Source of the DNA: Nibribacter ruber
Lineage (GTDB): Bacteria > Bacteroidota > Bacteroidia > Cytophagales > Hymenobacteraceae
Direction: 5' to 3'
Assembly: GCF_009913235.1 (NCBI RefSeq)
Contig: NZ_CP047897.1
Location: 4,029,001 to 4,093,000, forward strand
Length of the DNA stretch: 64,000 nt
Shown: one piece after another, positions 2,142-61,926 of the stretch
Layout: every line of letters starts with the position of its first letter
Numbering within the stretch: the first letter of the stretch is position 1
Made by a program: the position numbers and the translations under genes
Notes under the pieces: model-generated
Told to the model about the DNA's origin: nothing
Databases searched by the model: none
Seen by the model: the letters and a program-made list of their open reading frames with translations, nothing else

Positions 2142-2179
2142 CGTTTTTCGGCTGGTTTCCAGAAAATACCCAAAAAACG
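2142..2179. repeat. Interspersed palindrome family R, copy 1 (degenerate)
   Basis: Imperfect inverted repeat CGTTTTTCGG...CAAAAAACG starting one base after the stop of the S46 peptidase gene. It overlaps the left arm of the following intrinsic terminator. It is a diverged member of the approximately 38-bp palindrome found across the window. Confidence 0.7.
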
Positions 2180-2210
2180 CCCGGTGCTCTAAGCGCCGGG
2201 CGTTTTTGTT
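2176..2210 (+). terminator. Rho-independent terminator of the S46 peptidase gene
   Basis: GC-rich stem AACGCCCGGTGC / GCGCCGGGCGTT with loop TCTAA, followed by TTTTTGTTTT. It serves the peptidase gene and could also stop the converging small gene. Confidence 0.85.
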
Positions 2211-2240
2211 TTAGATTAGAATAAGGGTTGGGCTCAAGCT

Positions 2241-2441
2241 CTATTGGCAATGTACGTAGCAAAGCACTTGCTCGCATTTTCCCCATTGCTTGTTCTTGCA
2301 CTGTTTGCCGGTAGACTTGGCCGTGGCGGTGCATTGGGGATTGTAAGCAGATACGGCTTTAGGCGCGGCGCTGGGAGAAGAAAACGACAGCATCAAACCA
2401 ACGCTGGCCGCCAGCGACAAAGAGGTAAAAAATCTTTTCAT
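2241..2441 (-). CDS. Small secreted Cys-rich protein (66 aa), DUF5763-like pattern
   Basis: A 66-residue protein with a signal peptide (MKRFF then a hydrophobic run to about residue 24, SAAPKA). The mature part has four Cys in the arrangement QCTATAKSTGKQC...C...CYVHC. This resembles the small Bacteroidota family with C-x-A-T-x-x-G-x-x-C...C-x-x-H (DUF5763-like), a likely metal-binding or disulfide-knotted fold of unknown role. The assignment to that family is from memory of the pattern. It stands alone, convergent with the S46 peptidase. The longer plus-strand frame across the same bases has no signal peptide or family pattern and is regarded as a shadow. Confidence 0.75.
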   Translation of the reverse strand: MKRFFTSLSLAASVGLMLSFSSPSAAPKAVSAYNPQCTATAKSTGKQCKNKQWGKCEQVLCYVHCQ

Positions 2442-2483
2442 GACAGTTCTGGGTTAGGTAGGTTTTTCATAAATATAGTAAAA

Positions 2484-2517
2484 GTAAATATAAGCCGGGT
2501 ACCAATTTTGGAGCAAA
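2484..2517 (-). promoter_or_regulatory. Candidate promoter of the small Cys-rich gene
   Basis: On the minus strand, TTTG (2514-2517) and TATATTTA near 2485-2492 resemble the Bacteroidota TTTG / TAnnTTTG boxes with a 21-nt spacer. The spacer is slightly long and the last base of the -7 box is off consensus. Confidence 0.25.
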
Positions 2518-2553
2518 GCACGTAGGAGGAAAACTGTCCAACCCCCTGAGCCT

Positions 2554-3384
2554 ATGATGCATACTCTACGCTTAGTCCTGCTTCTCTTCATCCTTCTATT
2601 TGGAGGGATCGCTCATGCTCAGTTATACAATGCGCCCGCTGGGGCCAGAAGCATGGGCTTGGGCGGCGCCTCGGTGACCTTGACAGACGTATGGGCTCTT
2701 TCCAATAACCCGGCGGGAACGGCTGCACTAAAACAACCCACATTAGGAGGCTTTGCCATCAACCGGTTTGGCCTGCAGGAACTCACCACCGTAGGGCTGT
2801 TGGCCGTGCTCCCGACTGCCAGGTGGGGGACGCTGGGATTGGACTTGCAGCGGTTTGGAGGCGAGTTGTACAATGAGCAACGCCTGGGTTTGGGTATTGC
2901 ACATCAGTTGGGGCAGGTACGATTAGGGTTGAAGGCAGACGTGTTGCAGGTGCGGGTCAAAGAATGGGGCAGCCGAAAAGCCATCGCCCTGAGCCTGGGC
3001 GGTCAATCAGAAGTCATACCGGGGCTTACGTTTGGGGCGCACATCTACAACCTGAACCAAGCCAAACTGGCTGAGTTTGAAGACGAGCGCTTGCCCACGG
3101 TCATGAAGATGGGCATAGGCTACCAGGCGGCAACCAAAGTATTGCTGCTTTTAGAGGCTGAAAAAGAACTGGAGCACCCGGCCGCCGTGAAAGCTGGGGT
3201 GGAATACCAGGTCCTGCCAGCCCTGGCCTTTAGAACCGGCTTTCATTCGGGTACCCGCTCTGGTACGGCAGGGGTGGGGGTCACCTTCCAAAAGTTTCAG
3301 GTGGCCTATGCCTTGGGCGCGCAGAGCAGGCTGGGCTTGACCAATTCCTTGTCCTTGACCTATCAATGGGAGCGGCAGCCATGA
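2554..3384 (+). CDS. PorV/PorQ-like outer-membrane beta-barrel protein
   Basis: A 276-residue secreted protein with a clear signal peptide (hydrophobic run at residues 7-20, cleavage near AHA-Q). After it comes the motif GARSMGLGGA...SNNPAGTA typical of the PorV/PorQ and UPF0164 group of FadL-like barrels. The rest is alternating amphipathic strands ending in a plausible terminal strand, LSLTYQWERQP. The stop TGA overlaps the ATG of the next gene (ATGA at 3381-3384), so the two are probably translated together as an outer-membrane pair. Family is seen; the exact function (T9SS accessory or simple porin) is not shown. Confidence 0.75.
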   Translation: MMHTLRLVLLLFILLFGGIAHAQLYNAPAGARSMGLGGASVTLTDVWALSNNPAGTAALKQPTLGGFAINRFGLQELTTVGLLAVLPTARWGTLGLDLQRFGGELYNEQRLGLGIAHQLGQVRLGLKADVLQVRVKEWGSRKAIALSLGGQSEVIPGLTFGAHIYNLNQAKLAEFEDERLPTVMKMGIGYQAATKVLLLLEAEKELEHPAAVKAGVEYQVLPALAFRTGFHSGTRSGTAGVGVTFQKFQVAYALGAQSRLGLTNSLSLTYQWERQP

Positions 3385-5474
3385 AGCGTTTTTGGCTTGT
3401 TTTTCTGGTTTTAGCCCTAAAACAGCTGTCTTCCTGGGCGCAGGAAGTGCCGCGGCCGGCAGTAGATGTGGAACTGTTGGTGCAGGAGCTTTTTGCCGAG
3501 CAGACAGATGAAAACGCAGTGGCTTATGAAGACTTGTATGAAACGCTGCTGCAGTACTACCGCCAACCCTTAGACTTAAACATGGCCACCCGCGAAGAAC
3601 TGCGCGGGCTTTGGCTGCTTTCTGAAGCCCAGATTAGCGCCCTGCTCCAGCACATAGCAGACAATGGTCGGCTCTTGACCCTGTATGAACTGCAGGCCGT
3701 GCCTACGTTTGACATGATCACCATCAGGCGGTTGCTGCCGTTTGTGACGGTGCAGTCCTTGGGGCAGGTGGGGCAAAAGACGTGGGCAGAACGGTTGCGG
3801 CAGGCCGAGAACCATTCATTGCTGCTACGGTATGACCGCACGGTGCAGGAGCGCAAAGGTTACACTCCGCCGGAGGGTCGCTCTCTAACGCGCTACATGG
3901 GCTCACCGGACAAGTATTTGCTGAGATATCGGCTAAGCCAGCCCAAGGACTTTAGCTTCGGGATTACCGCTGAGAAGGACGCCGGCGAGCAGTTTACCTG
4001 GCGCTCGGGCCAACGGCAGTATGGCTTTGACTTCTACTCCTTCCACGCGCAGTTGTATGACAGAGGCTCTTTTAAAACCATTGCCGTGGGGGACTATCAG
4101 CTGCAGTTTGGTCAGGGATTACTGCTTTCCAGCGGACTGGGCGTGGGCAAGGGTTCAGAAACCATCACTACCGTGCGCCGAAGCCAACTGGGTATCCGGC
4201 CTCATACCTCTGCCATGGAAACCAATTTCTTCAGGGGCATGGGCGCCACCCACCGCTGGCGAAGAGTACATACCACTTTGTTCTATTCCAACCGAAAAGT
4301 GGATGCCACCGTCAATGAGGAAGTTGAGCAAGAAGCAGAAGGATTGTCTGAAGTAGGGTTGGCGGGTAGCATCCAGACCTCGGGCCTGCACCGCACGCCC
4401 ACCGAACTAGAAAATAGACAGCGCGCCCGGGAGCAGGTGGCCGGCGGAGATGTAACTTACCGCAATCCCACACAGACCTTGGGCATTGGCCTTACAGCTC
4501 TGGTGACGCATTACAACATCAACTTACAAAAACGCCCGGAGCCTTACAATCAATACACTTTCTCTGGTCGGCAGAATACGGGAGTGGGCGTTCATTACAG
4601 CTACCTGTGGCAGAATTTCAACTTCTTCGGGGAGACGGCCAGGTCTGACAATGGCGGCGTGGGTACGGTCAACGGTCTGCTGGCCAGCCTGTCTGAACGG
4701 GTGGAGATGGCCTTTGTCTATCGCTACTACGCCAGAGACTTCCAGAGTCTGTATGGGAACGCATTCGGGGAAAGCAGCCGCAACCAGAACGAGGCCGGTT
4801 TTTACACGGGCCTTAAGCTGAAACTCAGTACCCGCTGGCAGCTCACGGCCTTCTATGACAGGTTCAGTTTTCCCTGGCTCCGGTACCGCGTAGACGCTCC
4901 CTCAGATGGCCAAGAGTATCTGCTGCGCCTGCAATTTGTGCCTTCCAAAACCACCTTGCTCTACGTTCAGTTTCAGGAGGAGCGCAAGGCCCGCAATGAG
5001 ACCGTAGAAGGGGAGGCCCTGGCCCTGGTGAGCGAGACCCGTGCCCAACGGATGCTGATGTTGCTGGACGTAAGCCCGCTGCCCTCGCTCCGGTTAAGGT
5101 CCCGTCTGCAGATGAGCCAATTTGAGCAATCGGGCAAGGTGGAGAAAGGCTACCTCATGGCCCAAGACGCCACCTGGGAACGAAACAAAACCCGTCTCAG
5201 CGCCCGCTACTCCCTCTTTGACACAGACGGTTACGATGCCCGCCAATACGCCCCAGAGCAGGATGTTCTCTTTGCGTTCTCCATCCCTGTGTTCACCGGC
5301 CAGGGTACGCATGTCTATTTTTTAGCTCAGCAGCAACTTTCCCGGCAGCTAGACATGTGGTTTAAACTCAGCCACACCCATTACAGAAATCAGGACACCG
5401 TCAGTTCAGGACTGGAAGAAATCCAAGGCCCCAGAAGAACGGACGTGCGGTTGCAAATTAGGTATCGTTTTTAG
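3381..5474 (+). CDS. Helix-hairpin-helix domain outer-membrane protein
   Basis: About 698 residues. I chose ATG 3381 because it makes an ATGA overlap with the upstream gene and starts a signal peptide (MKRFWLVFLVLALKQ, AQ cleavage near residue 21); an in-frame ATG at 3366 would precede it. Residues about 50-110 hold a helix-hairpin-helix region (PLDLNMATREEL ... LSEAQI ... LLTLYELQAV) as in the ComEA-like fold, and the long remainder has the alternating pattern of an outer-membrane barrel (many Tyr/Phe/Arg, ending LQIRYRF). This architecture is common in Bacteroidota and uncharacterised. The last codons (CGT TTT TAG) form the left arm of a palindromic repeat. Codons 3-8 (CGT TTT TGG CTT GTT TTT) also match the half-element. 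Confidence 0.75.
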   Translation: MKRFWLVFLVLALKQLSSWAQEVPRPAVDVELLVQELFAEQTDENAVAYEDLYETLLQYYRQPLDLNMATREELRGLWLLSEAQISALLQHIADNGRLLTLYELQAVPTFDMITIRRLLPFVTVQSLGQVGQKTWAERLRQAENHSLLLRYDRTVQERKGYTPPEGRSLTRYMGSPDKYLLRYRLSQPKDFSFGITAEKDAGEQFTWRSGQRQYGFDFYSFHAQLYDRGSFKTIAVGDYQLQFGQGLLLSSGLGVGKGSETITTVRRSQLGIRPHTSAMETNFFRGMGATHRWRRVHTTLFYSNRKVDATVNEEVEQEAEGLSEVGLAGSIQTSGLHRTPTELENRQRAREQVAGGDVTYRNPTQTLGIGLTALVTHYNINLQKRPEPYNQYTFSGRQNTGVGVHYSYLWQNFNFFGETARSDNGGVGTVNGLLASLSERVEMAFVYRYYARDFQSLYGNAFGESSRNQNEAGFYTGLKLKLSTRWQLTAFYDRFSFPWLRYRVDAPSDGQEYLLRLQFVPSKTTLLYVQFQEERKARNETVEGEALALVSETRAQRMLMLLDVSPLPSLRLRSRLQMSQFEQSGKVEKGYLMAQDATWERNKTRLSARYSLFDTDGYDARQYAPEQDVLFAFSIPVFTGQGTHVYFLAQQQLSRQLDMWFKLSHTHYRNQDTVSSGLEEIQGPRRTDVRLQIRYRF

Positions 5475-5505
5475 GCTGTTTTCAGGGAAATAGGCCAAAA
5501 ACGAT
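5464..5505. repeat. Family R palindrome, copy 2 (between convergent genes)
   Basis: ATCGTTTTTAGGC ... GGCCAAAAACGAT. The left arm contains the final Arg-Phe-stop codons of the helix-hairpin-helix protein gene. It lies between that gene and the convergent GT39-like gene, so it may work as a bidirectional terminator. Confidence 0.85.
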
Positions 5506-8802: not shown

Positions 8803-8864
8803 ACCCAATCGAGTCGTTTTTGGCCTGTTTTCCGGAAAACAGGCCAAAAACGACTCGATTGGGT
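8803..8864. repeat. Family R palindrome, copy 3: 62-bp perfect palindrome
   Basis: A perfect 62-bp palindrome centred on CC|GG at 8833/8834. The core is the family sequence. The outer 12 bases on each side (ACCCAATCGAGT and its complement) are specific to this locus. It lies in the 221-bp gap between sigZ and the FAD oxidoreductase gene, both on the minus strand. Confidence 0.95.
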
Positions 8865-8889: not shown

Positions 8890-9516
8890 CTAGCAGTTTT
8901 GCAAGGCAGAACAATCTGGCCTAATCTCAGCGCTTACCAATCGGCCCTTTCGGTCAAGTTCCAGATGACAACATTCCAAGAAGACCGCTTTCAATTTCTC
9001 GCGCCCTCGTTGTATTCTTGACTTGGCGCCTGATAGAGAAAGACCCAGTTGGTTGGCAATTTCTTGTTGCGGGATTCCTTCTAAATCAGACAATCGCAAA
9101 GGCTCTGCGTACTTTTTAGGTATTAGGTTTAAGAGCGGAAGAATGCACGCTTCCAAGCTGTGAAACGGGTTTTCTTCTGTTATGTCCACCACGTCTGTTT
9201 CCTCTAGTAATGGACTTGTGTGTTTCTCTTTGCGGTAAAAATCAGTTACCACATGACGGCTAATCTCATAGAGCCAAGCCCGAACGTTCTTTACGTTGGG
9301 CAGGGTTTCGCAATGGCGGTGTACCTTCAGGAGTACTTGCTGTGAAAGGTCTTCGGCGTCTGCTGTATTGGCTACTCTGTTCTTTATAAATCCCAGCAGC
9401 GCCTTCTCATAGGAAAGAAACACCATGGCCGCCTCTGTACAAGGATCATGAGCAGCCGTGGTGGGTGATGGGCTGCAAGAAGAGTTATTGGTGCAATTTG
9501 GAGATGATGGAGCCAT
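8890..9516 (-). CDS. sigZ: RNA polymerase sigma factor SigZ (ECF sigma-70)
   Basis: 208 residues. Region 2 (FIKNRVANTADAEDLSQQVL then VRAWLYEISRHVVTDFYRK) and region 4 (LSDLEGIPQQEIANQLGLS, AKSRIQRGREKLK) of an ECF sigma factor are clear. The tail after region 4 carries the features of the SigZ family: a paired Cys (LECCHLELDRKGRLVS) and later Cys (PDCSALQNC). The N-terminus is also Cys-containing and of low complexity, so the start could be internal; Met1 is kept because sigma region 2 begins soon after residue 30. SigZ genes in Bacteroidota are often near arsenic or metal genes, and an ArsI/GNAT pair lies 5 kb away. Confidence 0.88.
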   Translation of the reverse strand: MAPSSPNCTNNSSCSPSPTTAAHDPCTEAAMVFLSYEKALLGFIKNRVANTADAEDLSQQVLLKVHRHCETLPNVKNVRAWLYEISRHVVTDFYRKEKHTSPLLEETDVVDITEENPFHSLEACILPLLNLIPKKYAEPLRLSDLEGIPQQEIANQLGLSLSGAKSRIQRGREKLKAVFLECCHLELDRKGRLVSAEIRPDCSALQNC

Positions 9517-9539
9517 GGCATTATAGATGTAGATGAGGT

Positions 9540-9575
9540 GTTTTTAGTCTGTTTTGGCTGAAACAGGCCAAAAAC
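9540..9575. repeat. Family R palindrome, copy 4, at the 5' side of sigZ
   Basis: GTTTTTAGTCTGTTTT ... AAACAGGCCAAAAAC, 24 bases before the sigZ start codon. Because it is in a 5' leader or promoter region and not after a gene, simple terminator function is not enough to explain this copy. Confidence 0.85.
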
Positions 9576-9576
9576 G

Positions 9577-14041: not shown

Positions 14042-14111
14042 TTTAAGTTTACGGCCTCGTTTTTGGGCTATTTTCCAGAAAATAGCCCAAAAACGAGGCC
14101 GTAAACTTAAA
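14042..14111. repeat. Family R palindrome, copy 5: about 70-bp near-perfect palindrome
   Basis: Arms of 34 bases flank a central CA mismatch at 14076/14077; everything else pairs. The core matches the family. The outer 16 bases (TTTAAGTTTACGGCCT and its complement) occur only here. The right arm includes the stop codon (14107-14109) of the convergent GNAT gene. It sits exactly between two convergent genes. Confidence 0.95.
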
Positions 14112-34745: not shown

Positions 34746-36020
34746 CTATCTTACCCTTTTATTTTTTCTTAAATACGCCTTCGCCTCTTTTTCGGCATCA
34801 GATTTACCACCTGCCAGTTTGAGGACGGTCTCATAATAAGCTTTCGCCTGCCTTACGTTCTTCTCCTTGTCGCTCATTCTAGCCAAGTTCACAAAAGAGG
34901 CAATATAATACCCAGACTCCTGTTCACCACTCTGCTCAGCAAAGCTAATGCATTGTTTGTAATAGTCCTTGGCGGCCGCAAAGTCTTTGTATTTGTTCTG
35001 ATAGATATAGCCCAGGTAAAAACTAGCATAGCGTCCGCTGATGGCTTCGTAGCCAAACGTCTTTTTCTTGACCTTTTCCAAAATGGCCAAGGAGGTGGAT
35101 TCTACCGCCGGGAAGTTACCCTGGGTAAAGGCCATGCGGGCGAAAAACCGTTGGAAGTAGGGGTTGTCTGGATACGTAGCCGCTAGGTATTGCGCTAAGG
35201 ACATGGCGGCGGCGTCATTCTTGGCATCGTTGGCATAGATCTTCATCAAGAAGAACTTAGACTCGGTGCCGGTATAGAAGCCGTTGAAGGCCACTTGTTG
35301 TAATTGACGCAGGCCTAGTGCTTTGTTGCCGTTCGGGAAGAAGAGGAGAACTGGCCGTAAAAGCTTGTAATTCTCCTTGATCCACACGGCATAATAATTG
35401 AACAAGCCTTCGCCAAAGAGAAATTCATCACTCAAGCCATTCGCCTTTCTACTTTTCTGCAAGTAATCCAACGCCCGGTTGCTCATGATGGCCGCCTTGC
35501 GCCAGTTCTTTCGCTCGGCTTGTAGCCGTGCGCCAAAGCCATTGGCCGCCGACAAGAAGAAAGCCGCCTCCAGATTGTTTTTGTCTGCATCGTAGAGGTT
35601 CTCTGCGTATGTGATAGTAGTATCCATATAGGCCATGAAGGTGGCGTCATAGCGGGTGTCCCTGATGTTAGAAGGTACCATTTTCCACCAGTTGCTCAAG
35701 CCCAGCAGGAAATAGGGCATGGGGTGCTTAGGGTACCGGCGTTTCAAGGACTTAAACTGCTTTTCAGCGGTCTCAAACTTGAAGTTGTACATGTTGTCTA
35801 CCGCACCGCCCAGCTCGTTTTTAATGTCCTCATTCAGCAAAAGCCACCCTTTAATGTTCAAGGCCTGCGGAAGAACTTCCACGGAATCCAGAATAATTGA
35901 CCGCTTCAAAGAGTCCAAGAGTTGCTGGTCGATCTGCTGTTGTTTAGTGGTGTCCTGAACTTGCGCAAAAGCTGTAGAAATACAGAAGAAGGGCAGTAGG
36001 AAGAAAAATATCTTTTTCAT
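34746..36020 (-). CDS. Secreted tetratricopeptide-repeat protein
   Basis: 424 residues with a signal peptide (MKKIFFFLLPFFCISTAFAQ). TPR-type helices recur through the protein (e.g. FKFETAEKQFKSLKRRYPKHPMPYFLLG; YASFYLGYIYQNKYKDFAAAKDYYKQC). Periplasmic or outer-membrane-associated scaffold of unknown partners. Base composition returns here to that of the housekeeping genes, so this gene marks the right edge of the transferred polysaccharide locus. A half-copy of the family R repeat lies 10 bases before its start codon. Confidence 0.75.
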   Translation of the reverse strand: MKKIFFFLLPFFCISTAFAQVQDTTKQQQIDQQLLDSLKRSIILDSVEVLPQALNIKGWLLLNEDIKNELGGAVDNMYNFKFETAEKQFKSLKRRYPKHPMPYFLLGLSNWWKMVPSNIRDTRYDATFMAYMDTTITYAENLYDADKNNLEAAFFLSAANGFGARLQAERKNWRKAAIMSNRALDYLQKSRKANGLSDEFLFGEGLFNYYAVWIKENYKLLRPVLLFFPNGNKALGLRQLQQVAFNGFYTGTESKFFLMKIYANDAKNDAAAMSLAQYLAATYPDNPYFQRFFARMAFTQGNFPAVESTSLAILEKVKKKTFGYEAISGRYASFYLGYIYQNKYKDFAAAKDYYKQCISFAEQSGEQESGYYIASFVNLARMSDKEKNVRQAKAYYETVLKLAGGKSDAEKEAKAYLRKNKRVR

Positions 36021-36030
36021 TCAATTTCTC

Positions 36031-36049
36031 GAAAACAGGCCAAAAACGG
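36031..36049. repeat. Family R half-element, copy 6
   Basis: Only the right arm GAAAACAGGCCAAAAACGG is present, 10 bases upstream of the TPR gene start on the minus strand. No left arm is visible. It is the first family member to the right of the 22-kb repeat-free stretch. Confidence 0.75.
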
Positions 36050-36144: not shown

Positions 36145-36193
36145 AGAATGTTTTTGCCTTGTTTTGGTAAAAGTAGGCTAAAATTGACATTCT
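36145..36193. repeat. Family R palindrome, copy 7 (strongly diverged)
   Basis: AGAATGTTTTTGCCTTGTTTTGG ... GGCTAAAATTGACATTCT pairs over outer AGAATG/CATTCT and part of the core. It resembles the family but with several substitutions. It lies in the gap between the divergent TPR and M42 genes. Confidence 0.55.
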
Positions 36194-37383: not shown

Positions 37384-37423
37384 CCGTTTTTGGCCTGTTT
37401 CCTAGAAAACAGGCCAAAAACGG
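37384..37423. repeat. Family R palindrome, copy 8 (near-perfect core)
   Basis: CCGTTTTTGGCCTGTTT ... AAAACAGGCCAAAAACGG. One of the best core copies; arms pair over about 17 bases with a short central bulge (CCTAG). Confidence 0.93.
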
Positions 37424-40471: not shown

Positions 40472-40509
40472 CGTTTTTGGCCTGTTTTCCAGAAATCAGT
40501 CCATAAACG
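40472..40509. repeat. Family R palindrome, copy 9
   Basis: CGTTTTTGGCCTGTTTTCC then AGAAATCAGTCCATAAACG. The left arm is canonical; the right arm carries four changes, so the stem is imperfect. It lies just after the hpt stop. Confidence 0.88.
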
Positions 40510-42370: not shown

Positions 42371-42507
42371 AGCCTCACCCCCTAACCCCCTCTCCAGTTG
42401 AGAGGGGGAACTCACCATGCCGTTTTTAGCCTGATTTCCAGAAAACAGGCCAAAAACGCCGAAAGAGAAAAGTCCCTCTCCACGGGGGAGGGATTTAGGG
42501 TGGGGCT
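42371..42507. repeat. Composite inverted repeat enclosing a family R copy
   Basis: Outer imperfect arms AGCCTCACCCCCTAACCCCC (from 42371) and GGATTTAGGGTGGGGCT (to 42507) face each other. The left arm runs into a perfect hairpin CCCCCTCTC-CAGTT-GAGAGGGGG (42386-42408) and the right arm contains CCCTC...GAGGG. A family R palindrome occupies the middle. It starts three bases after the obg stop. Confidence 0.75.
42420..42459. repeat. Family R palindrome, copy 10
   Basis: CCGTTTTTAGCCTGATTTCC then AGAAAACAGGCCAAAAACG. It is nested inside the inverted repeat at 42371-42507. Confidence 0.9.
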
Positions 42508-44436: not shown

Positions 44437-44475
44437 AACGGCTGCTTTCCATTTGGAGAGTGGCCGTTGTCGTTT
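44437..44475 (+). terminator. Terminator after grpE-dnaJ
   Basis: Stem AACGGC..CTTTCC / GGAGAG..GCCGTT with an ATTT loop, followed by GTCGTTTT. Its 3' end runs into the next family R copy. Confidence 0.65.
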
Positions 44476-44507
44476 TCGGGCTATTTTCTGGGAATCAGGC
44501 CAAAAAC
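44471..44507. repeat. Family R palindrome, copy 11
   Basis: CGTTTTCGGGCTATTTTCTGG then GAATCAGGCCAAAAAC. It lies three bases left of the second-family element at 44511-44628. Confidence 0.82.
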
Positions 44508-44510
44508 CCA

Positions 44511-44725: not shown

Positions 44726-44762
44726 CGTTTTGGGCTTAAATTCTGGAAATCAGGCTAAAAAC
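44726..44762. repeat. Family R palindrome, copy 12 (diverged)
   Basis: CGTTTTGGGCTTAAATTCTGG then AAATCAGGCTAAAAAC. It closes the composite region before the ABC transporter genes. Confidence 0.75.
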
Positions 44763-44811
44763 AGTGTGGATTCGCTTTGCACCATGCCTTGCTTTGAAGT
44801 AGCTTAGCATA

Positions 44812-47586: not shown

Positions 47587-47636
47587 TAGTGTCATTTTTG
47601 TCTTGTTTTCATGAAATCAGGCCAAAAACGACACTA
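47587..47636. repeat. Family R palindrome, copy 13 with locus-specific outer arms
   Basis: The core (ATTTTTGTCTTGTTTTC ... GAAATCAGGCCAAAAAC) is extended by TAGTGTC / GACACTA, which pair perfectly and occur only at this copy. It lies between the WapI-like gene and chaN. Confidence 0.88.
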
Positions 47637-48630: not shown

Positions 48631-48668
48631 CGTTTTTAGCCTGTTTTCTGGAAATCAGGATAAAAATG
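48631..48668. repeat. Family R palindrome, copy 14
   Basis: CGTTTTTAGCCTGTTTTCTGG then AAATCAGGATAAAAATG. It lies 18 bases left of the second family B element. Confidence 0.85.
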
Positions 48669-48817: not shown

Positions 48818-48862
48818 TTTTTGTTTTTGGCCTGATTCCCAGAAAACAGCCCAAAAACAAAA
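48818..48862. repeat. Family R palindrome, copy 15
   Basis: TTTTTGTTTTTGGCCTGATTC ... GAAAACAGCCCAAAAACAAAA, seven bases after the family B element. The two family R copies on each side of B give an R-B-R composite. Confidence 0.88.
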
Positions 48863-51675: not shown

Positions 51676-51713
51676 CGTTTTTGGCTTATTTTGGTGAAAA
51701 TAGACAAAAAACG
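51676..51713. repeat. Family R palindrome, copy 16, at the methyltransferase start
   Basis: CGTTTTTGGCTTATTTTGG then TGAAAATAGACAAAAAACG. It must be in the promoter or 5' leader of the leftward methyltransferase gene, not after a gene. Confidence 0.85.
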
Positions 51714-53922: not shown

Positions 53923-53966
53923 AAAAACAGAAAAGCCCCGCTCTTGAGCGGGGCTTTTCTGTTTTT
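53923..53966. terminator. Strong bidirectional terminator
   Basis: AAAAACAGAAAAGCCCCGCT / AGCGGGGCTTTTCTGTTTTT, a long near-perfect stem. Its right end merges into the next family R copy. Confidence 0.9.
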
Positions 53967-53997
53967 GGGCTGTTTTAGCCAAAATAGGCCAAAAAAG
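53959..53997. repeat. Family R palindrome, copy 17
   Basis: CTGTTTTTGGGCTGTTTTAGCC then AAAATAGGCCAAAAAAG. It is fused to the 3' side of the preceding terminator, so the T run of the terminator is the start of the repeat. Confidence 0.8.
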
Positions 53998-54063: not shown

Positions 54064-54477
54064 TTAGTTGCTGTTGTCATACACGCCACTCTTCAAGCCG
54101 GGAGCTCCGCCCGGAGCGGCACCGGGTTCGGTAGAAAGGCCCATCTTCTTTTCGCGCTGCTGTTGGTATTTTAAGAACTGCGGCTGGGTCATTTGCTCCT
54201 TGAGGGCCATCAGGCGGGTGTTGCTAATCTGGTCCATCATGGTCTTCAGCTTTCTAGGATCGCCTTTCAGGTCTTTCCTGGCTTGTTCCATCTGCTGGAT
54301 GGCACGCAGGTTGATTTCCTCAATCTTCACTACCTGGGCACCGGTCAAACCCAAATGCTGACGCATGGAACTGGTCATGGCCTTGGCGCGGGCCTCCGGG
54401 GTGGTAGGAGTTGCAGTTTGCGCCGAGGCAGTATAAGAAGCTACCACTAAGGCGGCCAGTAAAAACAGTTTCTTCAT
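54064..54477 (-). CDS. Small secreted helical protein, Spy/CpxP-like
   Basis: 137 residues. Signal peptide (MKKLFLLAALVVASYTASAQ), then a helical region (RAKAMTSSMRQHLGLTGAQV ... EINLRAIQQMEQARKDL ... RLMALKEQMTQPQFLKYQQQRE) with the LTxxQ-type repeat of Spy/CpxP-like periplasmic proteins, and a Pro/Gly-rich tail. Role: possibly periplasmic chaperone or stress sensor; inference. TACCTTTG on the minus strand at 54570-54577 is a candidate promoter box. Confidence 0.72.
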   Translation of the reverse strand: MKKLFLLAALVVASYTASAQTATPTTPEARAKAMTSSMRQHLGLTGAQVVKIEEINLRAIQQMEQARKDLKGDPRKLKTMMDQISNTRLMALKEQMTQPQFLKYQQQREKKMGLSTEPGAAPGGAPGLKSGVYDNSN

Positions 54478-54632
54478 TTGGTGTATCGTTTTAAGAAGTC
54501 TAGGGCAAAGGTTGTTAGATAGTATGTCAAAGCCGAAGCCTTGCTAAATAGTTCCGGTTCTGGAGTAGCCAAAGGTACAAAAACCAAGCCATTTTTGAGC
54601 GTCAAACCAAGGCAATTGTGAGGTGTATAGAC

Positions 54633-54663
54633 TGTGGTTTGTTCTAATTAAGCCTTATCTTTG
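54633..54663 (+). promoter_or_regulatory. Promoter of tex
   Basis: TGTG (54633-54636), 19-base spacer, TATCTTTG (54656-54663). Spacing and boxes match the Bacteroidota consensus with one -33 mismatch, as before adk. The predicted leader is about 55 bases. Confidence 0.5.
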
Positions 54664-54723
54664 AAGTCTGTACAGCACGCAAAACGCCTGCTTTATTGAG
54701 TATTTGAATCATTTGTATTCCCC

Positions 54724-56976: not shown

Positions 56977-56979
56977 ACC

Positions 56980-57010
56980 AAAAGCCCCGCCATCAAAGCG
57001 GGGCTTTTTT
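56980..57010 (+). terminator. Terminator after tex
   Basis: AAAAGCCCCGC-CATCAAA-GCGGGGCTTTTTT, a strong stem with T run just after the tex stop. Confidence 0.9.
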
Positions 57011-57162
57011 ATGCCAGTACCAACATATTTATTATTATTGTAAACAGAGTGCAATCTTTTTATTGCTTCCTTACAAAACTATTGGCCTGTAAACAGGTAC
57101 TAAGTGGGTGAGAGAGTCCGCTCTGCCAATTCTGGCGGGGTATTGCACCTTATAACTGCCAC

Positions 57163-57597
57163 ATGGAAGAACCTTTAGCAACGTATACCATAGACACCAA
57201 CGGCGCCAGACGGGTCCTGACCCTGCATTGGCACGGGTTTGTGTCTAGTGAGGTATACCGCGAGGGCATGTTGGAGGCACTGAAAACATCCAGGCAGGGA
57301 GCCTATATCTGCTGGATCATGGACACCAAGGACATGAAAGTGATTCGGCAGATGGACCAGGAATGGACCGTAGCCACGTGGTTTCCGCAGTTTCAGTTAT
57401 TGGGTGTACAGAAGTTTGCCATTGTGGTTTCAGATGACATTTTCAACCAGATGGCCATCAGTAGCATGATTGCCAAGATTAGGCCCCACATTCAAGCCAC
57501 GGTGGAGTACTTTCAAACCCTGCAGGAAGCGGTGAACTGGGTGCAAGATCCTCAAGGCCTCTCAACCGACGATTTTGGCCTGTTTTCCATAAAATAA
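57163..57597 (+). CDS. STAS/SpoIIAA-like small cytoplasmic protein, C-terminus supplied by a repeat
   Basis: 144 residues. The pattern VLTLHWHGFVSSEVYREGMLEAL and CWIMDTKDMKVIRQMDQEWT resembles the STAS/SpoIIAA-like fold found in Bacteroidota; the fold is inferred. The last nine residues (DFGLFSIK plus stop) are encoded by the left half of a family R palindrome at 57570-57607, so the tail appears to be repeat-derived. A small gene follows after 21 bases. Confidence 0.65.
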   Translation: MEEPLATYTIDTNGARRVLTLHWHGFVSSEVYREGMLEALKTSRQGAYICWIMDTKDMKVIRQMDQEWTVATWFPQFQLLGVQKFAIVVSDDIFNQMAISSMIAKIRPHIQATVEYFQTLQEAVNWVQDPQGLSTDDFGLFSIK

Positions 57598-57607
57598 GCC
57601 AAAAACA
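57570..57607. repeat. Family R palindrome, copy 18, overlapping coding sequence
   Basis: CGATTTTGGCCTGTTTTCC then ATAAAATAAGCCAAAAAC. About 28 of its 38 bases are inside the STAS-like gene and code for its C-terminus and stop. Confidence 0.88.
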
Positions 57608-57618
57608 AATTCACGTGC

Positions 57619-57810
57619 ATGAACATCCGTAAAAAAGTAAAAGCAATTCTTCCCTTGGAGGGAGGCCGGTTTGCAGCCTTGGGCGTTTTTGTGAAAGCAG
57701 CTGAACAAGCCCAATGGACAGAGGCAGAAATACAATCCGTGATTGACGAAGTAATAGAAGCCGACGAGCAAGAGGCCCTGTCCATCCTGCAATCCTACAT
57801 TACCCACTAA
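57619..57810 (+). CDS. Small conserved-looking protein (63 aa), unknown
   Basis: 63 residues, cytoplasmic, acidic: [18 protein letters not shown] then [26 protein letters not shown] do not recognise it. It lies in a tight row (21 bases after the STAS-like gene, 11 before the next small gene) on the same strand, and the frame has even codon use, so it is probably a real gene in a three-gene unit. Confidence 0.6.
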
Positions 57811-57821
57811 CCACTGGTGCT

Positions 57822-58082
57822 ATGCCCTTGAACCCCAAACTGGAAGCTAAACTAAGCAAAGTGCTGGAGCCCAACGCCACGGTGCAGGACAGTTTTTCGG
57901 GGAAGGATTTGACCATCATCACAGATGCCAACGGCCATGCCAAAACTCTCTTTATTGGCAAGCGCAATCCAGATGGCAGCATCCAGGGCGAGCGCTACGT
58001 GCGCCGCTTGGTCTTGGAAGCCGATGGCAAAACCGTCAAAAGCAGCCACTGGGAAGCCAAAGGCAAAGTCTCCCGTGAGTGA
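57822..58082 (+). CDS. Small protein of unknown function (86 aa)
   Basis: 86 residues, basic, no signal peptide: LNPKLEAKLSKVLEPNATVQ, DGSIQGERYVRRLVLEADGK, HWEAKGKVSRE. Not recognised. The reading frame ends in the first unit of a (GTGA)n repeat, which supplies Glu and TGA. It is the last of the small-gene row before a response regulator. Confidence 0.6.
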   Translation: MPLNPKLEAKLSKVLEPNATVQDSFSGKDLTIITDANGHAKTLFIGKRNPDGSIQGERYVRRLVLEADGKTVKSSHWEAKGKVSRE

Positions 58083-58128
58083 GTGAGTGAGTGAGTGAGT
58101 GAGTGAGTGAGTGAGTGAGTGAGTGAGT
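58075..58128 (+). repeat. (GTGA)13.5 tetranucleotide repeat
   Basis: 54 bases of uninterrupted GTGA units, beginning inside the last codons of the 86-residue gene and ending where family R copy 19 begins. Each plus-strand frame meets TGA within four codons, so length changes cannot extend the protein; on the minus strand all three frames stay open. Confidence 0.95.
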
Positions 58129-58162
58129 TTTTGGGCTGTTTTCCTGAAAAGAAGCCAAAATC
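58127..58162. repeat. Family R palindrome, copy 19
   Basis: GTTTTTGGGCTGTTTTCC then TGAAAAGAAGCCAAAATCG. Its first two bases are shared with the end of the GTGA repeat. Confidence 0.82.
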
Positions 58163-58243
58163 GCCCTTGGTGCCCGCGCCTTCCGGAAGATTTCCCATCC
58201 CGTTTCAAAATTCCCAACTCTTTCCAGGTTTAGGTACGTACTT

Positions 58244-58259
58244 GCACAGAAACCTGTGC
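58244..58259. promoter_or_regulatory. Small inverted repeat ahead of the response regulator gene
   Basis: GCACAG-AAAC-CTGTGC, a perfect 6-bp stem ending four bases before the ATG at 58264. It could hide the translation start or act as an operator; this is inference. Confidence 0.35.
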
Positions 58260-58263
58260 GCCT

Positions 58264-58944
58264 ATGAAAATCCTGGTCATTGAAGACGAGCCAGACATGC
58301 TGGAAAATATGGTGCGTTCCCTAGAGCAGGAGCGCTACGTGGTGGAGTCTGCCCAAACCTATGACCAGGCCCTAGAAAAACTGGGCGTCTACGCGTATGA
58401 CTGCATTCTGCTGGACATCATGCTGCCCGGCGGAAGCGGCCTGGACCTACTGGAAGAACTCCAAAAACAGCAGAAGTCAGACAGTGTCATCATCGTGTCA
58501 GCGAAGAACTCCCTAGAGGACAAAGTGCTGGGCCTGGAACTGGGCGCCGATGATTACCTGGCCAAGCCGTTCCATCTGGCAGAACTGCACGCCCGCGTAA
58601 AATCTGTATTAAGAAGGAGGAAGTTTGAAGGCCAGAACCAGCAGCAGCTGGAAAATCTGCAGATAGACCTGGACAAGCGCCAGGCCTGGGTAAATGAGGA
58701 GGAACTGGCCCTCAACCGGAAGGAATATGACATTCTGCTGTACCTGGTTTCCAACAAAGACCGGTTGGTGAGCAAAACTGCGCTGGCAGAACACGTCTGG
58801 GGCGACAGCATTGACCAGGCAGACAACTTTGAATTCATCTATTCCCAGATCAAGAACCTGCGCAAGAAACTGAAGGACGCCGGTGCCTCGGTAGAAATTC
58901 AGGCTATCTATGGCATCGGGTATAAACTGGTCACCTCCTCATGA
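58264..58944 (+). CDS. OmpR/PhoB-type response regulator
   Basis: 226 residues. Receiver domain: acidic pair in VIEDEPDM, phospho-acceptor Asp51 (CILLDIMLPG), Ser/Thr site IIVSAKN and Lys101 (DDYLAKPFH). C-terminal winged helix with ALNRKEYDILLYLVSNKDRLVSK and the DNA-contact/wing part IYSQIKNLRKKLKDAG, GIGYKL. The stop overlaps the kinase start (ATGA at 58941), so it pairs with that sensor. The targets are unknown; the adjacent lipoprotein genes are candidates. Confidence 0.94.
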   Translation: MKILVIEDEPDMLENMVRSLEQERYVVESAQTYDQALEKLGVYAYDCILLDIMLPGGSGLDLLEELQKQQKSDSVIIVSAKNSLEDKVLGLELGADDYLAKPFHLAELHARVKSVLRRRKFEGQNQQQLENLQIDLDKRQAWVNEEELALNRKEYDILLYLVSNKDRLVSKTALAEHVWGDSIDQADNFEFIYSQIKNLRKKLKDAGASVEIQAIYGIGYKLVTSS

Positions 58945-60206
58945 AACTGCTCAACCACGTCACGGCCTACTTCGCTGCTATTCTTTTAGTGGTGTTAACC
59001 GCGTGGGCTACCATTTTCTATTATAACATGCTGGATGAAATCTATGACAGCATTGATGACGGCCTGGAGAACCAGAAAATCCTGGTCATGCAGAAAGCGC
59101 GGCAGGACAGCACCGTGCTGCAACAGAAAGACTTTGATGAAGGCTATTACAAGATAAGACCCATTGCACCTGCCCTTGGCCATCAATACAAAGACCGGTA
59201 CCAAGACACGCTCATGTACATGCAGAATGAGAAGGACTATGAACCGGTCAGGCTCTTGACCACTGTTTTTCAGCAAGGCGGGCAGTACTATGAAATGCGC
59301 CTGATCACGTCTATGGTGGAGGAAGATGACCTCATTGAAGACTTGCTGTATTCTCTGCTGTGGCTGTACCTGGGTTTGCTGGCTACTTTACTGTTGCTGA
59401 ATAACATCCTGCTCAAGCGCATCTGGAAACCATTTTACACCCTGGTCCATCGTCTGAGGAAATTTAAGCTGGACGGCGCTCAGCCTTTCACCTCGCCCAA
59501 ATCAAAAATTGAAGAGTTTGCCTTGCTGGGCCAGACTGTAGAAAAGCTATTGCAGAAGAACCTGGCCGTGTACCAAAGTCAGAAAATCTTTATTGAGAAC
59601 GCCTCGCATGAGTTGCAGACTCCGCTGGCCATTTCTCTGAACAAGCTGGAACTGCTGGCAGAAAGCCCCAACCTGCAGGAAAAGGAACTGGAGCAGATTG
59701 GCGGCATCTTGCAGAACCTGGAGCGCCTCACGCGCCTCAACAAGTCCCTGTTGCTGCTCTCCAAGATTGAAAACCGCCAGTTCCCAGAGGAGCAGGTACT
59801 ACAGCTCAACGCCACCGTAAAGACTGTTCTGCAGGATTTTGAAGACCAGATAGCCTACAAAAAGATCACCCTTACCCAGGAGCTAGACGATCACTGCTCA
59901 CTCACAATGAACCCAGACCTGGCCAATATGCTGGTGGTGAACCTGGTCAAGAACGCGCTGGTGCACAACGTACAGGGCGGGTTTATTGCCGTACGCCTCA
60001 CGGGGTCTACCTTGACCATTGAAAACTCGGGGCAGGCGGCGGGCTTAGACGCAGACCAACTATTCCAGCGGTTTTACAAAGGCAGTTCTGCTAACACCTC
60101 CACCGGTTTGGGCCTGGCCATTGTCAAAGCCATCTGTGATCTGTATGGTTTTACTATTAACTATGAGCATACTCAAAGCCACGTCCTTCAGGTGAAATTT
60201 AAATAA
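58941..60206 (+). CDS. Sensor histidine kinase
   Basis: 421 residues. Two transmembrane helices (about residues 8-29 and 135-160) flank a periplasmic sensor of about 105 residues. HisKA domain with the phospho-accepting His223 in FIENASHELQTPLA, then a HATPase domain with N-box LVVNLVKNALVHN, G1-type FENSGQ-like region and STGLGLAIVKAI. It would phosphorylate the response regulator encoded just upstream. The signal is unknown. Confidence 0.93.
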   Translation: MKLLNHVTAYFAAILLVVLTAWATIFYYNMLDEIYDSIDDGLENQKILVMQKARQDSTVLQQKDFDEGYYKIRPIAPALGHQYKDRYQDTLMYMQNEKDYEPVRLLTTVFQQGGQYYEMRLITSMVEEDDLIEDLLYSLLWLYLGLLATLLLLNNILLKRIWKPFYTLVHRLRKFKLDGAQPFTSPKSKIEEFALLGQTVEKLLQKNLAVYQSQKIFIENASHELQTPLAISLNKLELLAESPNLQEKELEQIGGILQNLERLTRLNKSLLLLSKIENRQFPEEQVLQLNATVKTVLQDFEDQIAYKKITLTQELDDHCSLTMNPDLANMLVVNLVKNALVHNVQGGFIAVRLTGSTLTIENSGQAAGLDADQLFQRFYKGSSANTSTGLGLAIVKAICDLYGFTINYEHTQSHVLQVKFK

Positions 60207-60212
60207 GTGGCT

Positions 60213-60260
60213 TCATCCGTTTTTGGCTTGTTTTCCAGGAAATAGACCAAAAACGGATGA
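60213..60260. repeat. Family R palindrome, copy 20 with outer arms
   Basis: TCATCCGTTTTTGGCTTG ... GACCAAAAACGGATGA. The outer TCATC/GATGA arms are specific to this locus and pair perfectly. It lies seven bases after the kinase stop. Confidence 0.92.
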
Positions 60261-60388
60261 GCTTAATCTGTCTTTTCCATCTTTGCCTCTACCTGAAAAA
60301 ATCATATGTTTTTTCTTGAATCAGGGGGAAATTCCCAATTGTTTCCTGTTTTGCCTTAGACCTTTGAGTCATTCATCATGTATAACTA

Positions 60389-60841
60389 ATGAAAATGACT
60401 ATGAAAGCTCTTTGGATAACCGTATTGGCCGTAGGCACTTCTTTAACCGGCTGCAGCCAGAAAATAAGCATGGCCAATATGCCCTCGGTAGTGCAGAACG
60501 GCCTTAAAACCCAATTCCCCAACGCCGTGAACCTGGAGTGGGAGAAGAACGGTGACATGTTTGAAGCCGAGTTTGACTTTACCCAGCAGGAGTACGCCGC
60601 CTTGGTAGACGCCACCGGCAAAGTAGTAGCCGTCAAACAAGAGATAGACGCCACGCAATTGCCCGAGCCCATCCTGCAACAGATAAAAACCAGCCACCAG
60701 GACTATACCCTGGATGACGTTGAAAAAGTAGAACGCGACGGCCAGGTGCTGTACCAGGTAGAGTTGCAGAAGACCATGCGGGAAGTAAAGCAAGTCTACA
60801 CCTCTGCAGGCGCTTCTTCCTCAGAGACTTTCTGGGACTAA
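60389..60841 (+). CDS. PepSY-like lipoprotein
   Basis: 150 residues (Met at 60389; ATG at 60401 is also possible). Lipobox SLTGC at about residue 22. The mature part has the PepSY-like/BLIP-like repeats: VQNGLKTQFPNAVNLEWEKNG ... YAALVDATGKVVAVKQEID and LPEPILQQIKTSHQDYTLDDV ... YQVELQ. Such proteins are often near two-component systems in Bacteroidota, as here. Envelope location; function unknown. Confidence 0.8.
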   Translation: MKMTMKALWITVLAVGTSLTGCSQKISMANMPSVVQNGLKTQFPNAVNLEWEKNGDMFEAEFDFTQQEYAALVDATGKVVAVKQEIDATQLPEPILQQIKTSHQDYTLDDVEKVERDGQVLYQVELQKTMREVKQVYTSAGASSSETFWD

Positions 60842-60855
60842 GCCCTAAAGTGGCA

Positions 60856-60903
60856 CTCTCCGTTTTTGGTCTGTTTTCTGGAAAAGAGGCCAAAAACGGA
60901 GAG
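60856..60903. repeat. Family R palindrome, copy 21 with outer arms
   Basis: CTCTCCGTTTTTGGTCTG ... GGCCAAAAACGGAGAG. Outer CTCTC/GAGAG arms pair and are unlike those of the other copies. The centre TTTTCTGG is in the opposite orientation to copy 20. Confidence 0.92.
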
Positions 60904-60967
60904 CTTTCCTCTTCTGTCAATGAGCAAAGGGAGAGTTAAATTCCGTCTAACCTAACATTAGAAAGCT

Positions 60968-61852
60968 ATGAAAACCATAAAAGGAATTATTTGCGGTCTG
61001 GTCCTGAGCACGTCACTGTTTGGTTGCGAGGCGCTGCAGGCAGACGCCAAAGAGAAAGGCAAGGAAAAGAAAGGACCGGTAGAGGCCGCTTCAAAGGCGG
61101 TGACCATTGCCCAGAAATGGGATGTGCCAGATATTCTGCGCGAAGTCTCAGGGATTGTGTACCTGGGCAATCACCAGTTTGCCTGCGTGCAGGATGAGGC
61201 CGGCGTCATTTTTCTGTACAACACCCAGACCAAGAACATAGACCGCCAGATTACGTTTGGCGCCGCCGGAGACTATGAAGGCATTGCTTTGGTAGGAGAT
61301 AACGCCTACGTGGTGCGCAGTGACGGGCAGTTGTTTGAGGTGACCAACATTCACTCCCAGCAAAACCAGGTCACCGAGTACCCAAGCGTCCTGACGCCTG
61401 AGCACAACGTAGAAGGCCTCACCTATGACCAGAAAAACAACCGCTTGCTGCTGGCCATCAAAGGCGAAGAAACCAACAGCCCCGCCTACAAAGGCGTGTA
61501 TGCGTTTGATCTGAGTTCTAAGAGACTGTCCAAAGAGCCGGTGTTCAAGCTGAGCCTGCAGGACCCGCTGCTGTTCCAGAAAAAGCAGAAGAGCCTGAGC
61601 AAAGTGTGGGAGCCCTCAGAAATTGCCATTCATCCTGTGACCGGAGAAATTTACCTGACAGAGGCCTCCAATCCGCAGCTGTTCATTCTGCACCCAGACG
61701 GGAAGATCAAGAACCGGTTCGCGTTGAACAAGCGGGATTTCTACAAACCAGAAGGAATTGCCTTCAGCCCGACCGGGGACTTATACATCTCCAATGAGGG
61801 AAAGAAGGACGCTGGTAACATTCTGCAAGTGACGTTGAAAGACGCGCAATAA
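60968..61852 (+). CDS. SdiA-regulated (YjiK-like) beta-propeller lipoprotein
   Basis: 294 residues. Lipobox SLFGC (Cys20). A Lys-rich linker, then the propeller-like region with LREVSGIVYLGNHQFACVQD, GDYEGIALVGDNAYVVRSDG, VEGLTYDQKNNRLLLAIKG, WEPSEIAIHPVTGEIYLTEA and PEGIAFSPTGDLYISNEG. This matches the SdiA-regulated domain family. Anchored in the envelope; the ligand is unknown. Confidence 0.82.
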   Translation: MKTIKGIICGLVLSTSLFGCEALQADAKEKGKEKKGPVEAASKAVTIAQKWDVPDILREVSGIVYLGNHQFACVQDEAGVIFLYNTQTKNIDRQITFGAAGDYEGIALVGDNAYVVRSDGQLFEVTNIHSQQNQVTEYPSVLTPEHNVEGLTYDQKNNRLLLAIKGEETNSPAYKGVYAFDLSSKRLSKEPVFKLSLQDPLLFQKKQKSLSKVWEPSEIAIHPVTGEIYLTEASNPQLFILHPDGKIKNRFALNKRDFYKPEGIAFSPTGDLYISNEGKKDAGNILQVTLKDAQ

Positions 61853-61878
61853 GTTAAAACTAGACCCTGGTTTTAAGC

Positions 61879-61926
61879 GGGAGCGTTTTTGGCTTGTTTT
61901 CCAGGAAACAGGCTAAAAACGCTCCC
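61879..61926. repeat. Family R palindrome, copy 22 with outer arms
   Basis: GGGAGCGTTTTTGGCTTG ... GGCTAAAAACGCTCCC. The outer GGGAG/CTCCC arms are specific to this locus. The right arm is followed by TTTT, so here it could also act as an ordinary terminator. Confidence 0.93.

Follow-up and report, generated by a model that had tools for sequence, protein, structure and literature searches.

Numerous 38-bp palindromes at gene ends in Rufibacter genomes as candidate sites of a dimeric DNA-binding protein

Results

The window analysed here, a stretch of 64,000 nucleotides, contains 23 copies of a 38-bp palindrome, identified with a half-site pattern and a position weight matrix. The half-site pattern, with up to three mismatches, matches 40 times in the window vs. 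0.45 times expected from shuffles. An earlier note on this DNA had described a family of about 22 copies; the motif is present at all 22 of the places it listed, and the matrix added a weak copy at 3387. The places are correct, although the core lies as much as about 16 bases away from the listed coordinate where extra complementary arms flank the 38 bp (8815 and 14058).

The copy at 2142..2179 lies directly after the stop of the gene 11-2140(+), the weak copy at 3387..3424 is located 3 bp after a stop at 3384, and the copies at 40472..40509 and 42421..42458 follow stops at 40457 and 42368 by 15 and 53 bp, respectively. Copies with outer arms are situated 46 bp after a stop at 47547 (47593..47630), 12 bp after a stop at 60206 (60218..60255), 20 bp after a stop at 60841 (60861..60898), and 32 bp after a stop at 61852 (61884..61921, followed by a T-tract). 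The copy at 8815..8852, whose core and outer arms are fully complementary, is 38 bp past the stop of the gene 8890-9516(-), and that at 57570..57607 overlaps the end of the ORF 57163-57597(+). Between convergent genes there are the copies at 5466..5503, which overlaps a stop at 5474, at 14058..14095, which has a complementary core and long outer arms (genes 12182-13978(+) and 14107-14616(-)), at 53960..53997, and at 48631..48668 and 48822..48859, to the left and right of a REPIN-like pair. Another REPIN-like pair is flanked by the copies at 44471..44508 (left) and 44726..44763 (right) in the same tandem gap; tandem gaps also contain the copies at 37385..37422, 51676..51713 (3 bp from the called start of the ORF 50867-51673(-)), and 58126..58163 (directly after a GTGA tandem repeat).

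Three copies of the window lie in divergent gaps. The first, at 9539..9576, precedes the sigma-70-family gene 8890-9516(-) by 23 bp, in agreement with the previous assignment of a copy upstream of sigZ. The second, at 36011..36048, had been placed at 36031 as a half copy and is effectively a half site, with the core at 36011 and the right half intact; it overlaps the first bases of the ORF 34746-36020(-). The third, at 36149..36186, is diverged. The copies at 36011-36186 are indeed beside the ORF that had been taken for a TPR gene, but its TPR match is weak and falls below the Pfam cut-off. Some "upstream" copies, e.g., that at 47593, are also just 3' of the preceding gene. An AT-rich 22-kb stretch of the window is free of copies, and the comparison of the window with Rfam families gave no match at the gathering score.

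Counted beyond the window, as had been proposed, the family is not limited to a few copies: the position weight matrix (score cut-off 10; best reversed-control score 5.8) finds 343 copies in 864 kb of the same genome, which extrapolates to about 1,730 copies per 4.35-Mb genome. The palindrome is present in 16 of 16 Rufibacter genomes, in an estimated thousand or more copies each. The 102 other genomes of the same order have 0-6 pattern matches each, similar to the control, and 394 further genomes of the phylum have no pattern matches; a search of viral contigs with one degenerate pattern gave no exact matches. De novo search revealed shared palindromes in six of six Rufibacter sets (20 to 60 kb; some nested in one another). 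Seven single-genome sets from outside Rufibacter, each of 20 to 60 kb, had none; a set in which three genomes of another genus were pooled yielded six palindromes, of which those shown are A/T-rich and at least two are terminator-like. A near-consensus copy outside the genus was observed at L048:9962 (genome G035), a few bases 3' of a short ORF. Binned into 40 stretches of 20 kb, the copies seem to be spread too evenly (variance/mean 0.54), but the intervals from one copy to the next give no such picture (coefficient of variation 1.04), and because these measures disagree, regular spacing is not relied on here. A literature search covering titles and the openings of abstracts found no earlier description of the Rufibacter 38-bp repeat.

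In the genome of the window, gaps of 40-400 bp are filled in 28 of 35 convergent, 73 of 158 tandem, and 10 of 41 divergent cases; these gap classes are approximate, since the simple gene caller (about 82% of the sample called as coding) misses some genes of the window. The median distance of a copy in tandem gaps is 32 bp after the stop. Called genes contain 13 of 198 copies in this genome; for G004 and G009 the figures are 20 of 71 and 27 of 129, respectively. A copy is present within 250 bp of 150 of the 260 protein-coding ends vs. 6 of the 29 tRNA ends (p 1.5e-4) and, among the ends with a classical terminator, at 38 of 55 coding vs. 6 of 25 tRNA ends. Tandem gaps that contain both a terminator and a palindrome have the terminator ahead of the palindrome in 25 of 30 cases (five genomes pooled). 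T-runs within 35 nt are enriched but not a rule: in the genome of the window they accompany 33 of 88 copies in tandem gaps and 7 of 37 in convergent ones, and in the tandem gaps they follow 33 copies and precede 18.

The half-site in this genome is CGTTTTTGGSCTRTTTTC, with two T-tracts spaced by about one helical turn, and the centre is CA or TG in 212 of the 343 copies. Isolated half-sites are nearly absent: in 464 kb, 5 of 373 half-site matches stand alone, and the reversed control gives 4 matches. The majority of copies do not appear to be RNA hairpins, and their halves vary independently. At the freely varying pairs 7, 9, 10, 12, 13, and 16 there is no excess pairing (z 1.4, 0.5, -1.9, -3.1, -0.7, and -1.3, respectively), and covariation concerns positions 6 and 14 (z 5.5 and 4.9), both near-invariant. 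Splitting the copies by score revealed no hidden covariation at positions 7, 9, 10, 12, or 16; position 6 keeps a z of 4.4 in lower-scoring copies without arms, and position 13 reaches 3.2 in the top quarter and 1.5 without arms. Covariation was also found in G006 (positions 5 and 6, z 5.0 and 3.3) and in G001 (position 6, z 3.1). In R. ruber, 54 zero-mismatch copies among the matches listed show covariation of positions 7 and 9 (z 4.7 and 6.1), while in 59 copies selected without regard to match quality z is -0.9 and 1.5 at these positions and 2.8 at position 6. The half that is downstream with respect to transcription scores slightly higher in five of five genomes (by no more than 1.5 standard errors in any one genome and by about 2 for all combined), so that perfect symmetry of the site is not proved.

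Complementary outer arms occur in 5-22% of copies, depending on the species, in seven genomes. In copies whose outer arms have at least 5 bp, the core covaries in all seven (z 3.1 to 9.0; 6 to 29 copies each), and this minority does look, from its sequence, like hairpins built round the core. In the copies without outer arms, which constitute 78-95% by species, the core has no clear pairing excess (z -3.6 to 1.8). The proposal that the palindromes are RNA-processing hairpins is not supported for the majority and may hold for the minority.

Comparison of filled and empty gaps, a check that had been suggested for mobility, indicates largely conserved positions and argues against it. In 12 testable orthologous gaps (the genome of the window included), tandem and convergent gaps are filled in 93 of 107 cases and divergent gaps in 3 of 48. 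The nine tandem or convergent gaps are filled in 16/16, 12/15, 8/13, 16/16, 4/8, 15/15, 10/12, 8/8, and 4/4 genomes, and the three divergent ones in 2/16, 1/16, and 0/16; the gap of the copy at 53960 is one of those filled in 16/16. Some gain and loss of copies occurs across the genus, the gaps 51673-52074 and 56976-57163 being those filled in only 8/13 and 4/8 genomes. Between the genome of the window and its close congener G007, 13 orthologous copies were kept for comparison and 10 of the 23 window copies dropped; constrained positions differ in 9 of 234 cases (3.8%) and flanks in 274 of 1326 (20.7%; p 3e-12), variable positions in 39 of 156, and the centre in 11 of 26. The T-tracts and some neighbouring bases are under purifying selection. 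The consensus is species-specific, differing genome-wide and in both halves, e.g., CGTTTTCGGGCTCATTTC in G013 and CGTTTAGGGGCTGTTTTT in G005, while the gaps are largely orthologous.

A whole-genome search revealed three Y1_Tnp (RAYT-like) matches in the genome of the window, all outside the window; the remark of the earlier note that the window has no RAYT gene thus holds. G007 has no Y1_Tnp match and no REPIN pattern match in its whole genome, yet it carries 1,448 palindromes, and the linked RAYT gene that had been envisaged was not found. Y1_Tnp is also present in genera without palindromes. The genome of the window contains a separate REPIN-like family, which differs in sequence and is patchy. 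The palindrome consensus is symmetric, with CGTT or TGTT at both ends and no one-sided GTAG/CGTC tag.

Discussion

The conservation of positions while the spelling shifts across the genome points to the site of a DNA-binding protein, and not to a mobile repeat or a conventional terminator. Results of our analysis suggest, with a probability that we place just short of even, that each copy is a two-fold symmetric site of a putative abundant dimeric DNA-binding protein that would form a boundary at mRNA ends. From the sequence comparisons we infer both protein binding and a bidirectional boundary function. The dimer would bind the two half-sites and act in both directions, most likely as a roadblock halting RNA polymerase that reads past a stop codon or a leaky terminator, and would separate the neighbouring transcription unit. 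A minority of the copies have acquired a hairpin around the site, which may act at the RNA level too. The earlier note was right to include nucleoid-protein sites among its options, and its view that the family is interspersed and more than a set of terminators is supported, while binding itself is a prediction. A search for the protein among the basic ORFs with biased codon usage in the samples, with three genes as the codon reference, gave nothing usable. It is possible, although we consider it rather doubtful, that a single dimeric protein serves the whole genus as a boundary factor, blocking or insulating mRNA transcription units at their ends from either side at well above a thousand sites, and that its specificity has been rewritten more than once along with the sites.

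By analogy, the palindromes could instead be topological sites, at which gyrase or a supercoil-buffering architectural protein would be recruited to the ends of translated genes, where positive supercoils accumulate. E. coli REP/BIME elements have been proposed as such sites. Convergent gaps that are mostly filled and divergent ones that are mostly empty, together with the lower number of copies after short untranslated tRNA genes, are consistent with this, and the T-/A-tracts about a helical turn apart and the CA/TG centre may suggest bent DNA. However, the consensus differs between species, which is unexpected for a conserved enzyme such as gyrase, and we regard this explanation as unlikely.

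We also see only a small chance that the copies serve generally as RNA hairpins, either terminators or protectors of mRNA 3' ends. Their location after stop codons, the covariation in the outer-arm subset and at two positions of the zero-mismatch copies of R. ruber, and the enrichment of downstream T-runs in tandem gaps agree with such a role, but the great bulk of copies have neither outer arms nor a clear core pairing excess, most have no T-run within 35 nt, and classical terminators exist separately.

A self-recognition sequence spread by molecular drive, comparable to the DNA uptake sequences (DUS) of Neisseriaceae, which form dialects, would account for the many copies and the species dialects, and the AT-rich stretch of the window without copies would fit as well. 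It is improbable in view of the near absence of isolated half-sites, the site length of 38 bp, the low share of copies inside called genes in the genome of the window (higher in G004 and G009), and the preference for protein-gene over tRNA ends. The REP/MITE-like mobile element of RAYT origin that had been put forward, although suggested by the dispersed, palindromic, intergenic, and high-copy character of the family and by three RAYT-like genes in the genome, was rejected as most improbable, since orthologous tandem and convergent gaps are mostly filled across the genus, G007 has its copies without Y1_Tnp matches or REPINs, and rates of change are unequal along the site.

If the palindromes are indeed sites of a boundary protein, a bacterial genus uses a sequence-specific protein site, and not solely hairpins, to mark over half of the mRNA ends that could be tested. 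Its species would then be natural variants of such a system, in which changes of the protein could be matched to changes of the site. This would make it possible to study directly how specificity changes in a factor that has over a thousand sites, and to ask if protein roadblocks are a general way of ending transcription units in bacteria. On a weaker reading, the palindromes are a non-mobile family, and abundant intergenic palindromes need not be REPs.

Like REP/REPIN/BIME elements, the palindrome is short, very numerous, and intergenic, mainly between convergent and tandem genes, as is also reported for REPs (PMC3733652). It differs from them in having no one-sided GTAG/CGTC tag and no RAYT dependence, in its largely fixed positions, and in the lack of covariation between halves in most copies. 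With the DUS of Neisseriaceae, for which dialects, association with gene ends, and inverted pairs at terminators are described (PMC3630211), it shares very many copies, species dialects, and gene-end association; unlike DUS, it is a long obligate dyad with nearly no isolated halves and, in the genome of the window, few copies in called genes. As in the case of intrinsic terminators, the palindrome is often just 3' of stop codons and its symmetry could act from both sides, but it follows no T-tract rule, its sequence and not its pairing is conserved in most copies, and it is often 3' of a classical terminator and mostly absent after tRNA genes. To our knowledge, one specific 38-bp site per about 2.5 kb, with specificity that differs between species, is unusual for nucleoid-associated or global DNA-binding proteins. 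The palindrome nevertheless resembles the sites of such proteins in being a dyad with independent half-sites under selection.

Occurrence of the palindrome within the genus

All 22 places at which the earlier note had located the palindrome in the window were borne out, and a position weight matrix added one further, weak copy at 3387. In 864 kb of the Nibribacter ruber genome, which is a single contig of 4,352,178 bases, this matrix identified 343 copies scoring at least 10 (the top score in the reversed sequence being 5.8), far more than a few copies and equivalent by extrapolation to about 1,730 in the whole genome. Their consensus is CGTTTTTGG(C/G)CT(G/A)TTTTC-(CA or TG)-GAAAA(C/T)AG(G/C)CCAAAAACG.

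The only named record matched by the exact 34-base core, in a genome_contigs scan from which the genome of the window and its closest relatives may be absent, was Rufibacter ruber, whose genome holds 1,717 pattern copies, and we take the genus of the 16 genomes compared here to be Rufibacter. A degenerate pattern occurs 88 to 1,717 times per genome in all 16, N. ruber included, and 0 to 6 times in the 102 genomes examined from the rest of the order, in which a control pattern occurs 0 to 4 times; a stricter pattern occurs 1,155 times in N. ruber and not at all in 394 other genomes of the phylum, no congener being among them. A low pattern count in a congener does not mean that palindromes are scarce there: matrices fitted to each genome, with cut-offs fixed from the reversed control, give 350 to 586 copies per Mb in the seven genomes for which at least 200 kb was sampled; the values of 450 to 950 per Mb in genomes sampled at 20 to 40 kb only are less certain. 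No prior description of this family was found in the literature searched.

The fitted consensus varies between species, in both half-sites. It is CGTTTTTGGCCTGTTTTC in N. ruber and its close congener G007, CGTTTTCGGGCTCATTTC in congener G013 (C in 92% at position 12 and A in 71% at position 13), and CGTTTAGGGGCTGTTTTT in congener G005 (A in 71% at position 5, G in 76% at position 6), and is looser in G004 and G009. Sites of N. ruber score on average 49.9 with their own matrix and 29.3 with that of G013, while sites of G013 score 51.5 with their own and 34.0 with that of N. ruber. N. ruber and G007 are paired in a tree of 14 joined proteins, in which the branch round G013 has weak support (0.365).

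The AT-rich part of the window at 14100-36000 (39.5% G+C vs. 49.4%) looks like acquired DNA and contains no palindromes; a stretch of G007 (L045) is AT-rich too, and its first 12.5 kb are free of copies. A lone near-consensus copy in another genus (genome G035, L048:9962-9999), a few bases 3' of a short ORF, perhaps arrived with transferred Rufibacter DNA. At 58075-58132 of the window, a GTGA tandem repeat abuts a copy directly.

Gene context and terminators

Among N. ruber gaps of 40 to 400 bp, copies are present in 28/35 convergent, 73/158 tandem and 10/41 divergent ones (33, 73 and 12 copies, respectively), and in six congeners 67-100%, 39-56% and 12-47% of such gaps are filled. In tandem gaps of N. 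ruber, the median distance from stop codon to copy is 32 bp. Copies within called genes number 13/198 in N. ruber, 20/71 in G004 and 27/129 in G009; in the latter two the cut-offs admit weaker matches or the gene caller may misplace genes.

Seven genomes contain 2.0 to 4.7 classical terminators per 20 kb. In tandem gaps with both a terminator and a copy, pooled from five genomes, the terminator precedes the copy in 25/30 cases (8/8, 6/9, 2/2, 5/5, 4/6). We compared coding 3' ends with gaps of at least 60 bp, from 464 kb of N. ruber, with tRNA ends from the whole genome (36 tRNA genes, excluding seven that have other genes of their cluster behind them; loci L114-L137, L020, L025 and L027), the gap classes being unmatched. 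A copy lies within 250 bp of 150/260 coding ends vs. 6/29 tRNA ends (p = 1.5e-4), and a terminator within 130 bp of 55/260 vs. 25/29 (p = 5e-12). The coding ends comprise 38 with both, 112 with a copy only, 17 with a terminator only and 93 with neither, so the two are not exclusive (p = 0.07). At terminator-bearing ends, a copy is present in 38/55 coding and 6/25 tRNA cases. The earlier note's view that the copies are not only terminators was upheld. The scarcity of copies after tRNA genes disfavours a general terminator role. It fits either control of mRNA read-through or a possible role of the palindromes as topological sites relieving supercoils generated by translated genes.

Pairing between half-sites

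A hairpin function would lead one to expect covariation at paired positions. In the 343 N. ruber copies, z is 1.4, 0.5, -1.9, -3.1, -0.7 and -1.3 at the freely varying pairs 7, 9, 10, 12, 13 and 16, and 5.5 and 4.9 at the hardly variable positions 6 and 14; the centre is CA or TG, i.e., unpaired, in 212. When copies of G000 (N. ruber), G005, G004, G013, G007, G006 and G009 were divided by the presence of complementary outer arms of at least 5 bp, core covariation was found in those with arms (29, 18, 6, 20, 14, 21 and 6 copies, or 5-22%; z 3.1 to 9.0) and not in those without (169, 68, 108, 97, 91, 74 and 123 copies; z -3.6 to 1.8). A minority of copies thus resembles hairpins, and for the majority the proposal of RNA-processing hairpins is not supported. 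Certain results run counter to this division: there is covariation in G006 at positions 5 (z 5.0) and 6 (z 3.3) and in G001 at position 6 (3.1), position 6 retains z 4.4 in lower-scoring N. ruber copies without arms, and 54 zero-mismatch copies of Rufibacter ruber, a top tail of its 1,717, show covariation at position 7 (z 4.7) and position 9 (z 6.1). In 59 copies of that species not selected as best matches, z is -0.9 and 1.5 at these positions and 2.8 at position 6.

Isolated half-sites are nearly absent: of the 373 half-site matches in 464 kb only 5 are isolated, and the control yields 4 matches. The downstream half of tandem copies, in the sense of transcription, scores slightly higher in 5/5 genomes tested, an excess within 1.5 standard errors in each and of about 2 when combined.

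Selection on bases and conservation of positions

Thirteen copies with clear orthologous flanks could be compared between N. ruber and G007, 10 of the 23 in the window being dropped. Only 9/234 bases differ at positions 2-6, 8, 11, 14 and 15, vs. 274/1,326 in flanks of up to 60 bp (p = 3e-12); the variable positions 7, 9, 10, 12, 13 and 16 differ at 39/156 and the centre at 11/26. Rates so unequal along the site argue against a dead repeat decaying neutrally.

Twelve gene gaps were scoreable in the 20 kb orthologous to 42,600-62,500 of the window, in N. ruber and all 15 congeners. Nine tandem or convergent gaps are filled in 16/16, 12/15, 8/13, 16/16, 4/8, 15/15, 10/12, 8/8 and 4/4 genomes (93/107), and three divergent gaps in 2/16, 1/16 and 0/16 (3/48). 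Most positions are thus conserved, some copies having been gained or lost, and this is one of the grounds on which a mobile element was rejected. Three RAYT-like genes are present in N. ruber, as is a REPIN-like family made up of inverted pairs of about ACTCGCTYGCCTCTGGCRAGTGTGAG, different in sequence from the palindrome, with pairs of 122-125 bp at 44509-44630 and 48686-48810 of the window and another at G000:C1:4297630-4297752. This family (40 half-element matches in N. ruber) is unevenly distributed among the congeners, and a RAYT-like gene is found about 120 bp away from one of its pairs. G007 has no Y1_Tnp match and no REPIN-like match, yet it has 1,448 palindromes, which, together with the kept positions, speaks against both the REP/MITE-like mobility and the linked RAYT-like gene considered in the earlier note. 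Where a REPIN-like pair of N. ruber is flanked by two copies, only a single copy is present in G007. Its left flank is like that of the first N. ruber copy and its right flank like that of the second one, an arrangement that recombination between these two copies would produce.

Putative function and comparison with known systems

The dyad, the few isolated halves, the independence of the halves, the selection on bases and the dialects form the pattern expected of the site of a putative dimeric DNA-binding protein, which, judged from sequence, is the most likely reading. A listing of sampled ORFs by composition and codon usage, with a codon reference of three genes, revealed no such protein. 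The dimer would occupy each palindrome, and the bound site may act as a bidirectional boundary, either halting RNA polymerase as a backup or serving as an insulator. This role is suggested because there is usually one copy per gap, placed after mRNA genes, common to convergent pairs and often behind a terminator.

The family differs from intrinsic terminators in failing their T-tract test and from REP elements in failing the three REP features tested. Dialects are shared with the uptake sequences of Neisseriaceae; those, however, are single, partly intragenic units, unlike the palindromes described here.
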